Both the position numbers and the translations under genes were made by a program. From the NCBI RefSeq assembly GCF_003581425.1, contig NZ_QXTG01000002.1, forward strand, positions 1,054,001 to 1,118,000: a DNA stretch of 64,000 bases, given 5' to 3'. A model generated the notes under the pieces. It made no database searches. It worked only from the letters and a program-made list of their open reading frames with translations, and was not told the origin of the DNA. This DNA is from Amnibacterium setariae (lineage in GTDB: Bacteria; Actinomycetota; Actinomycetes; Actinomycetales; Microbacteriaceae). Below, in pieces: positions 34,430-38,076 of this stretch; the stretch's first letter is position 1; every line of letters begins with the position of its first letter.

Positions 34430-35742
34430 CCGCCGTCGAGCCCGACCAGCGCACCGACTCCAAGCTGAAGCAGGTCGTCACCGGTCCCCTGCTCTTCCTC
34501 TTCATCCTCGGCGACGTGCTCGGTGCGGGCATCTACGCGCTGATGGGCGTGCTGGCAACGGAGGTCGGCGGCGTCCTGTGGCTGCCGCTCGTCGTCGCCC
34601 TGCTGCTCGCGCTGCTCACCGCGGGCTCCTACGCGGAGCTCGTGACGAAGTACCCGCGGGCCGGCGGCGCCGCCGTCTTCGCGGAGCGCGCCTTCGGCAA
34701 GCCGCTGCTGTCGTTCCTCGTCGGCTTCTGCATGCTCGCCGCGGGCGTCGTCAGCGCCGCGGGCCTCGCGCTCGCGTTCGCCGGCGACTACCTCGCGACG
34801 TTCCTCCCGGTGCCGCCGATCCCCGCGGCGATCGTCTTCCTCGCCCTCGTCGCGCTCGTGAACGCGCGGGGCATCCAGGAGTCGACGCGCGGCAACGTCG
34901 TCATGACGGTGATCGAGGTCAGCGGCCTCGTCATCGTGATCGTCTGCGTCGCGGTGATGCTCGGCGGCGGAGGCGGCGACCCGTCCCGCGTCACCGCGTT
35001 CCCGGACGGCGCGAACCCCGCGCTCGCCACGCTCGGCGCCGCGATCATCGCCTACTACTCGTTCGTCGGCTTCGAGACCTCCGCGAACATCGCGGAGGAG
35101 GTCCGGGAGCCCTCCCGCGTCTACCCGAAGGCGCTGTTCGGCGCGCTGATCACCGCCGGCGTCGTCTACGTGCTGGTCGGGCTCGCGAGCTCGATCGCGC
35201 TGCCGCCGGAGCAGCTGAGCAAGAGCTCCGGCCCGCTGCTCACCGTCGTCTCCGCCTCCGGCGTCCCGGTGCCCGAGTTCGTGTTCAGCCTGATCGCCCT
35301 CGTCGCCGTCGCGAACGGCGCGCTGCTGACGATGATCATGGCGAGCCGGGTGACCTTCGGCATGGCGGAGCAGCACCTGCTGCCGAGCGTGCTCGGCCGC
35401 ACCCTGGCGAAGCGCCGCACGCCGTGGGTCGCGATCGTCGTGACCACGGTGGTCGCGATGGCGCTCACCCTGGTCGGCGACCTGTCGCTGCTCGCCTCGA
35501 CCGTGGTGCTCCTGCTGCTGTTCGTGTTCATCGCGGTGAACGTGTCGGTGCTGGTGCTGCGGCGGCAGCGGGTCGACCACGCGCACTTCCGCGTGTGGAC
35601 GGCCGTGCCGGTGCTCGGCGTCGCGTCGTGCGTGCTGCTGCTCACGCAGCAGGAGGGCCGGGTCTGGCTGGTGGGCGCGATCGCCCTCGTCGTCGGCGCG
35701 GTGCTCTACTTCGCGGCCAAGCTGGTGCCCTCGCGGGGCTGA
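34426..35742 (+). CDS. APC-superfamily amino acid permease
   Basis: 438 residues with about 12 hydrophobic helices. APC landmarks are [22 protein letters not shown] in helix 1, [21 protein letters not shown], and [22 protein letters not shown] in helix 6. Probably a proton-coupled amino acid or amine transporter; substrate unknown. GTG 34426 was chosen on family N-terminus length and on coupling to a leader ORF. Its last 37 bp overlap the antisense 3' end of mutM. Confidence 0.88.
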
Positions 35743-36656
35743 CGCGCGGCGCGCGGGCGGCGCTGGCAGCTCGGGCAGAGGTGGCTCGACCGGTTCATGA
35801 AGGCCTCGCGCACGATCGGCCGGCCGCACCGCGCGCACGGCCTGCCCTGCTGCCCGTAGGCGTTGAGGCGCTGCGAGAAGTAGCCGGAGGCGCCGTTCAC
35901 GTTCACGTACTGGGCGTCGAAGCTCGTGCCGCCGTCCGCGAGGGCGCGCTCGAGCACGAGGCGCACCTCGGCGAGCAGGCGGCGGACCGCGGGGCGCTTC
36001 AGCGACGCCGTCGGCGCCTCGTAGTGGAGGCGGGCGGCCCAGAGCGCCTCGTCCGCGTAGATGTTGCCGATCCCGGACACGAGGGTCTGGTCGAGCAGCG
36101 CGCGCTTCAGCCCGGTGCGGCGCGCGAGGAGGCGCTCGACGAAGCGGTCGTCGTCGAACGCGGGGTCGAGCGGGTCGCGGGCGATGTGGGCGACGTGCTC
36201 TGGCACGAGCGGCTCGGTGCTGCCGAGGCCGCCGGGCGCGCCGTCCGCGGTCGGCACGAGGGGGTCGAGCGCGAGCGACCCGAAGATGCGCTGATCGGCG
36301 AAGGCGACGACGAGATCGCCGTGCTCGGGGTGCTCGAGCGAGATCCGGACGCGCAGCTGCCGGTCGGCCGCCGCGTCGGGCGTGCGGAGGAGCAGCTGCC
36401 CGCTCATGCCGAGGTGGCCGAGCACCGCGACGGGCGCCTCCTCCCCCTCCGGCTCGACCGGCAGCCAGAGGAACTTGCCGCGCCGGACCGCGCCCGCGAG
36501 GCGGCGGCCGACGAGGCGGCGCTCGAAGTCGGCGACGCCGCCGAGGTGACGGCGGAGGGAGCGCGGCTCGACGACCTCCACGCCCGTGACGAGCGCGCCG
36601 GCGACGGCCGGCTCGAGCCCCGCGCGGACGACCTCGACCTCGGGCAGCTCAGGCAT
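35706..36656 (-). CDS. mutM: Formamidopyrimidine-DNA glycosylase MutM (Fpg)
   Basis: 316 residues. Excises 8-oxoguanine and related lesions. Catalytic PELPE at the mature N-terminus (P2, E3), K61 in RRGKFLW, and the C-terminal zinc finger [10 protein letters not shown]...HLCPSC. The stretch [18 protein letters not shown] is the helix-two-turn-helix DNA-binding part. A basic tail follows the zinc finger. The ATG overlaps the rnc 3' end by 8 bp. The 3' end overlaps the convergent permease by 37 bp. Confidence 0.97.
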
Positions 36657-37338
36657 GGAGCGACCGGTAGGCCTCCCAGGCCGCGGCGACCTCGGCCTGC
36701 TTCTTGCTGGTCCCCGTGCCCGTCGCCGTCACCAGGTCGCCGACCGTCACGGTCGCGGTGAAGACCCGGGCGTGCTCGGGGCCCTCACCGTCGACCGAGT
36801 AGACGGGCGGGGTCGCGCCGCGTGCGGCGGCGGCCTCCTGCAGCGCGGTCTTCGGGTCGGTGACCGCGCCCGTGGAGGCGGGGTCGTCGGCGAGCGGCTG
36901 GACGAGCCGGAGCACGAGCGCCTCCGCGTCCTCGCTGCCGGCGGACAGGAACGTCGCGCCGATCAGGGCCTCGACGGCGTCGGCGAGGATCGACGGCTTC
37001 TCGGCGCCGCGGGTCAGCACCTCGCCGCGGCCGAGCAGCAGGTGCTCGCCGAGGCGGAGGGTGCGCGCGATCGACGCGAGCGCGACGGTCGAGACGAGGC
37101 CCGCGCGACGCTTCGCGAGGGCGCCCTCGTCGTCGTCCGGGTACCGCTCGAACAGCATCATCGTGACGGCGCGCTGGAGCACGCTGTCGCCGAGGAACTC
37201 GAACCGCTCGTTGTCGGCGGTGCCGTGCTCGTAGGCGTACGAGCGGTGCGTCAGCGCCGTCTCGAGGAGAGCGGGCTCGATCTCGACGCCGAGCGCCGAG
37301 ACGAGGGATGCGCGGTCGGGCGCTGCGGCGCCCGCCCG
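36649..37338 (-). CDS. rnc: Ribonuclease III, start codon unresolved
   Basis: About 229 residues if translation begins just after rpmF. Catalytic domain signature [13 protein letters not shown] (the family ERLEFLGD), [18 protein letters not shown] with the second metal ligands, and a C-terminal double-stranded RNA-binding domain ([36 protein letters not shown]). It processes rRNA and mRNA. No ATG, GTG or TTG exists in this frame between rpmF and the first GTG at 37182, which already lies past the catalytic ERFEFLGD motif. The coordinates given are therefore the largest plausible extent. Confidence 0.85.
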
Positions 37339-37339
37339 A

Positions 37340-37543
37340 TCAGGCGTCGGCGACCCGGCGACCCTTGTACTCGAGGTACAGGGGCACGCCGTCCGAGCCC
37401 TCGACCACCTTGGCGCGGTGGGGCAGGGAGTACACGACCTTGCCGTTCTCGATGGTCTTGACCAGGGTCGGCACCTCGGCCTTCCACTGCGACCGGCGCG
37501 ACCGGGTGTTGGAACGCGACTGCTTCCGCTTGGGAACCGCCAT
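37340..37543 (-). CDS. rpmF: 50S ribosomal protein L32
   Basis: 67 residues, basic. It opens with the L32 N-terminus [21 protein letters not shown] split as usual into a Lys/Arg/Ser stretch and an aromatic turn, then [18 protein letters not shown]. The cysteine zinc ribbon of some L32 proteins is absent (Cys-minus form). Two bases separate it from the upstream yceD stop; the rnc frame begins immediately after it. Confidence 0.95.
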
Positions 37544-37545
37544 GG

Positions 37546-38076
37546 CTATCTCTCTTCCGTCTTGTCCTGGTCCTGCACGAGGCCCTGCAGCGCGGCCCAG
37601 CGGCCGTCCACGGGCTTCTCGCGCTCGGCATCGGCCGTGATCAGGCTGATGCCGGGACCGAGATCGAGGTCCTCGCAACCGTCGACGCACTCGGGCTGGA
37701 AGGGCAGTGACAGCACCACCGCGTCCCGCACCACCGGCTCGAGATCGAGCAGGTCGCCATCGAGCTGGTGGTCGAACGGTTCGTCAGCAGGGTACCCGAA
37801 GAGCTCGGCGAACTCGACCTGCACGGGCAGGGACACCGGAGCGAGGCACCGGGCGCACTCGCCGTCGGCCGTCCCGGTCACGCTTCCGGAGGCGAGGACG
37901 CCCTCGTGGAGCGACTCGAGCTTCAGGTCGATGTCGAGGTGCGACCCCTCCTGCACCGCGACGAGGCCCTCGCCGAGGTGCTCGGGCACCGCGATGTCGA
38001 GGTGCCGTTCGCGCATCTCACCGGGGTGACGGACGAGGTCGCGCACGTTCTGGATGTAGGGGCTGCGCGCGTTCAC
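37546..38076 (-). CDS. YceD-family (DUF177) protein
   Basis: 176 residues from GTG. YceD/DUF177 pattern: [19 protein letters not shown], then [26 protein letters not shown] and a C-terminal ECVDGC (four cysteines that may bind zinc). The family accompanies rpmF across bacteria and has been linked to 23S rRNA accumulation. TACGCT lies 8 nt before the GTG, so the yceD-rpmF-rnc-mutM operon may start with a leaderless mRNA here. Confidence 0.9.

Follow-up and report, generated by a model that had tools for sequence, protein, structure and literature searches.

Results

The window (the whole stretch of DNA that was analysed, 64,000 nucleotides of Amnibacterium setariae, a soil actinobacterium) carries four genes on its minus strand in the order YceD-like gene, rpmF, rnc and mutM. 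The first of these (37546..38076), a YceD/DUF177-like gene, starts at GTG and lies upstream of rpmF, the gene of ribosomal protein L32 (37340..37543), whose end reads GTC GCC GAC GCC TGA. The rnc gene, which encodes RNase III, an enzyme cutting double-stranded RNA, occupies 36649..37347 and would comprise 232 codons and a stop if it began at the ACG at 37347-37345. Its stop codon is overlapped over 8 nt by the ATG of mutM (35706..36656; ATGCCTGA, 36656-36649). Read from stop to stop, the open reading frame of rnc covers 298 codons (37545..36649), and the earliest ATG, GTG or TTG in it is a GTG at 37180..37182, directly after the catalytic motif. An earlier reading made from the sequence alone had described rnc as a gene without any of the three standard start codons, and this is borne out by the GTG at 37182 as the first one in a frame open from 37545. 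It had also placed the entry of this frame, shifted by +1 relative to rpmF, exactly at the rpmF UGA; the shift is as described, but the frame does not begin at the UGA and extends back across almost the whole of rpmF, as far as a stop at 37546-37548.

Judged from its sequence, rnc is an intact, ordinary RNase III gene. Its product gives a full-length match to the TIGR02191 model above the curated cut-off (213.2 bits, cut-off 166.25, profile positions 11-218 of 219), and its best solved relative is 2a11 (E 5.7e-59). The translation carries NERFEFLGD and a downstream acidic site, and we take NER-EFLGD to be the catalytic motif of RNase III and ADxVEALIGA its downstream acidic site. Since the GTG at 37182 follows the catalytic motif, it comes too late for a working enzyme. 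The gene is under purifying selection, including the 41 codons before this GTG (pN/pS 0.34 against G001 and 0.25 against G002), and for those 41 codons pN/pS ranges from 0 to 0.54 across eight genome pairs. A second copy of RNase III was not found in the genome (3.48 Mb, 5 contigs) at E <= 0.001. When the open reading frames of at least 240 nt in the window were compared, with coding judged by a crude composition score, rnc was alone among 52 predicted coding stretches in that its first standard start came later than 16 codons into the coding sequence, at 41 codons.

Seven genomes of the genus Amnibacterium were compared, G000 (this genome, 5 contigs) to G006 (2 contigs), with G003 being a draft of about 350 contigs. 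The alignment with relatives that the sequence-only reading had proposed as a check gave a divided answer: four of the seven carry a standard start at the corresponding site, and three, G000, G003 and G006, have none near it. The rnc gene of G002 starts with ATG and that of G001 with GTG, each 4 nt 3' of the rpmF stop, while in G004 and G005 a GTG stands 1 nt 3' of it. Aligned by eye with the ATG of G002 and the GTG of G001, the codon in this genome is GCG (37333..37335), at position -28 before the conserved THRS motif; its homologue is TCG in G003 and GCG in G006, and both of these genomes differ from G000 in the sequence around the site. In-frame ATG codons far upstream (at -125 and beyond in G003 and at -122 in G006) were dropped as candidates, having no counterpart in G000. 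The junction of Amnibacterium sp. CER49 (L012) reads like that of G006, and the junction of Amnibacterium sp. RYN_56 (L011) like that of G004; such named matches to rnc assign the seven genomes to Amnibacterium. A record titled as an Acidobacteria MAG (L009, JABBOB010000017.1) has an rpmF-rnc junction of the Amnibacterium type with codons as in G002, and it is probably mislabelled.

The tree of the RNase III and MutM proteins was (G006,((G004,G005),(G003,(G000,(G001,G002))))), with values of 88/91 at one inner fork and 94/92 at another, and the three genomes lacking a standard start sit on three separate branches of it. The state must therefore be old or repeated. The pattern can be accounted for by a standard start having been gained twice or lost three times, and on either account translation must long have relied on some other start.

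To what extent does this recur in the family? The rnc gene was surveyed in 150 genomes of Microbacteriaceae, the seven of the genus and 143 others, which is what remained of 152 genomes after G040, with the gene split over contigs, and the overlooked G047 were set aside. The start zone was defined by an ATG, GTG or TTG 20 to 50 codons before the THRS motif. In 140 of the 150 genomes (138 by script, and L222 and L224, read by eye as ATG starts) such a codon was present, and in ten it was absent: G000, G003 and G006, G014 and G089 of genus g9, G025 (g20), G107 (g38), G038 (g33), and G120 and G059 (g54). If the zone is widened to -18, which takes in a GTG at -19 in G025 and a TTG at -18 in G120, eight of the 150 remain. 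Further species were sought in the genera of these genomes, yielding four in g38 and seven in g54 and none in g9 and g33, and two of the eleven added species (G152 and G158) have no standard rnc start between -50 and -20. The first of them, which belongs to g38, offers nothing upstream of the conserved domain but a TTG at -18, and its peptide directly after the rpmF stop is similar to that of G154, which has a TTG in its place. The start column of nine g54 genomes contains GTG four times, ATG, TTG, CTG twice and CGC, a mixture which indicates that weak starts recur at rnc. One g38 genome also carries a second RNase III-like gene with 52% identity to the query (L239, G153:C14:1267-1953).

The neighbouring genes served as controls. 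An ATG or GTG start was found in all 32 loci in which mutM was located (33 examined), and rpmF starts with ATG in 130 of the 131 cases located by script among 147 loci. In 25 of 31 loci the YceD-like gene has a standard start ahead of a conserved motif; five others could not be scored, and in L101, without a start, the script was apparently in the wrong frame. Within Amnibacterium the position of its GTG is identical in 5/7 genomes, those in which the script located it. At the rnc/mutM junction, six of the seven congeners show an 8-nt overlap with a standard start, RTGCCTGA (offset -8), and this is the same geometry as that of the ACG over the rpmF stop.

The start zone of rnc in this genome holds no ATG, GTG or TTG, as expected of the class of near-cognate starts, and between the end of rpmF and codon -15 the single codon within one base of AUG in each of G000, G003 and G006 is ACG. 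In this genome it lies at 37345..37347 and overlaps the rpmF stop by 8 nt (ACGCCTGA, 37347-37340), arising from the GAC GCC TGA of rpmF. The same ACG is the only near-cognate codon common in position to both g9 genomes (G014 and G089), while G038, whose frame is the other open one, has a CTG and then an ACG over the rpmF stop. Later tests covered 147 of the 150 genomes, leaving out L204 and L229, missed by a stricter pattern, and L143, with no rpmF match. All ten genomes without a standard start have an rnc frame that stays open across the rpmF stop, against 88 of the 137 with one (Fisher p 0.015, relatedness ignored). In nine of the ten rnc is both open there and in the ACG frame, as it is in 61 of the 137 (p 0.006, again without regard to relatedness), an excess that rests on about six genera.

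The ACG is present over the rpmF stop in all seven congeners, though the codon bias of rpmF holds it there. The GAC codon from which it derives is kept in 145 of 147 loci, where about 32 GAT would be expected from the other Asp codons, and at other sites rpmF has 1060 C-ending against 30 T-ending codons. We rejected the conservation of GAC as a sign of an ACG start, because rpmF avoids codons ending in T, so that the ACG is present regardless and its conservation proves nothing. The Shine-Dalgarno match upstream of the ACG is poor (-5.8 kcal/mol in G000).

Tests for coding in the spacer that separates the rpmF stop from the standard starts gave weak results. In g38 there is a third-position excess (4, 2 and 8 by codon position, 27 codons), and such an excess upstream of standard starts is also seen in a few other pairs; in g9 pN exceeds pS in the spacer (0.38 and 0.33), contrary to coding. 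The G+C content by codon position was a powerless test for the spacer, as the N-terminal coding part itself gives little signal. In pairs of unequal spacing within genera the frame was kept in 41 and changed in 39, where one third would be expected to keep it if the spacer were free, but indels inside the gene keep it as well. A hairpin is predicted 3' of the rpmF stop in all seven congeners, and its folding z-scores are no better there than in the other 140 genomes (means -0.9 and -1.0). Separately, G025 (L150) has a terminator-like hairpin of 13 bp between rpmF and rnc, with an ACG at -34 within it. The pattern of the initiator-tRNA anticodon arm matched three times in G000, one match being tRNA-Met (CAT), and none of the three carries an anticodon reading ACG.

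Discussion

Where, then, does RNase III begin in this genome? We favour, with moderate confidence, weak near-cognate initiation of rnc, most likely at the ACG at 37347-37345 and coupled to the translation of rpmF. The sequence-only reading had offered a rare start codon, a base error or a frameshift, and the first of these is the best supported. Because the coding and Shine-Dalgarno signals are weak and codon bias would keep the ACG in place anyway, we reach this codon by elimination. We infer from the sequences both the ACG as the start and re-initiation as its mode: ribosomes finishing the heavily translated rpmF would stop beside the ACG, a small share of them might re-start on it with initiator tRNA, and one mRNA would thereby yield much L32 and little RNase III. 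Perhaps a low dosage of RNase III beside abundant L32 is the purpose of such an arrangement, and it would be a sensible one, although here we can only conjecture. In favour of this reading are the recurrence of the start-less state on separate branches and the like overlap at mutM. Against it count the four congeners with ATG or GTG at the right place, the draft state of the G003 assembly, and the very weak initiation at ACG reportedly seen in E. coli (Hecht 2017).

It is unlikely, though worth weighing, that initiation is non-standard at some other codon, such as the GCG at -28 or one nearer the fold, for instance CTC at -18. The GGC GC after codon -28 is kept across the genus, across the family the last standard rnc start lies most often at -28 (26 of 138), and the 2a11 chain has its Met opposite our residue 8. 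However, GCG, TCG and CTC are each at least two bases from AUG, the three start-less congeners offer the ACG as their one near-cognate codon down to -15, and a CTG at -14 (G003) and an ATC at -10 (in all) fall inside the conserved domain.

Could an ordinary start be masked by a base error in this assembly? The homologous codon, GCG at -28, is one base off a standard start, and the rpmF-rnc junction is GC-rich. In two of 39 named loci (L025 and L032, both Microbacterium records) the rnc start reads as runs of C, apparently faulty sequence, so that errors do occur at this junction. One error here cannot explain, however, why G003 and G006 also lack a start; these are separate assemblies on separate branches, and three independent errors at one place would be improbable. 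We regard this option, put forward by the sequence-only reading, as having a slim chance. Smaller still is the chance that a programmed +1 frameshift at the rpmF stop produces an L32-RNase III fusion, a mechanism to which that reading had already given the lowest rank. The rnc gene is indeed +1 to rpmF in all seven congeners and in nine of the ten start-less genomes, with the frame open through the stop, but the stop is preceded by GCC, GCG or GTC instead of a slippery run, the start-less genomes use TGA, TAG and TAA as the rpmF stop, the congeners with ATG or GTG require no frameshift, and the ACG accounts for the same frame. It is hardly credible that the enzyme is made from the GTG at 37182, the first standard start in the frame, or that the gene is dying, as such a start would delete NERFEFLGD and everything before it, the 41 codons upstream are under purifying selection and the genome search at E <= 0.001 gave no other RNase III.

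A start at the ACG in this genome might also be one case of something wider. Is it possible that rnc begins at the ACG of the rpmF end, or at a CTG over the stop as in G038, across much of Microbacteriaceae, so that the protein would be extended at its N-terminus even in genomes with an ATG or GTG further on? We consider this doubtful; in 46 of 77 genera, counting the first member of each, rnc lies in the frame of the ACG, and this may be taken as a hint and only that, like the third-position excess upstream of standard starts in a few pairs. If it were true family-wide, the output of RNase III would depend both on the translation of L32 and on the amount of IF3, by way of the discrimination against near-cognate codons.

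It is very rare for a native bacterial gene to begin with none of AUG, GUG and UUG. A survey of 61,358 ancestral AUG starts gives two switches to CUG and one to AUU (PMC5622118). Non-canonical initiation in E. coli is treated in PMC11497404 and PMC13245402, and the latter presents peptide evidence for starts at near-cognate codons and at a few non-cognate ones. Among the literature matches listed, we found no report of an rnc gene lacking a standard start. Here a core enzyme is in this state in three of seven genomes of a genus, and apparently repeatedly in one family, which makes rnc a natural test of how weak a start codon may be and still work where it overlaps the stop of a strongly translated gene. 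Annotation would be affected as well, since a gene caller limited to standard starts would presumably begin RNase III at the GTG at 37182 and lose the catalytic motif. Chloroplast non-AUG starts are reportedly the subject of PMC9845219.

How does rnc compare with known systems? In prfB a programmed +1 frameshift occurs at a slippery CUU before UGA. The downstream frame of rnc is likewise +1 and passes a UGA, but GCC (GCG in G001) stands before it in place of CUU, and the UGA is not fixed, being TAG in G014 and G089 and TAA in G107. The poly(A) polymerase gene pcnB, which starts with AUU in E. coli, also encodes an enzyme of RNA metabolism with a weak start, but its codon is AUU instead of ACG and we know of no overlap with the stop codon of a ribosomal protein gene. 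The infC gene, encoding IF3, is known elsewhere for its near-cognate, AUU-type start and is autoregulated by IF3. In all seven congeners (L253-L259) it has a conserved ATC at the apparent start with a GGAG motif upstream; no ATG, GTG or TTG is common to the seven, and in three of them a TTG stands four codons upstream of the ATC. By its sequence, infC would seem to be a positive control for a near-cognate start in the same genomes. It resembles rnc as an otherwise ordinary gene with a near-cognate start codon and differs in having GGAG upstream and one fixed codon, whereas rnc is without a strong Shine-Dalgarno sequence and has ATG or GTG in four of the seven congeners. Lastly, translational coupling by overlapping start and stop codons has the 8-nt geometry that recurs at the next gene, mutM, with the difference that the start codon of rnc would be ACG.
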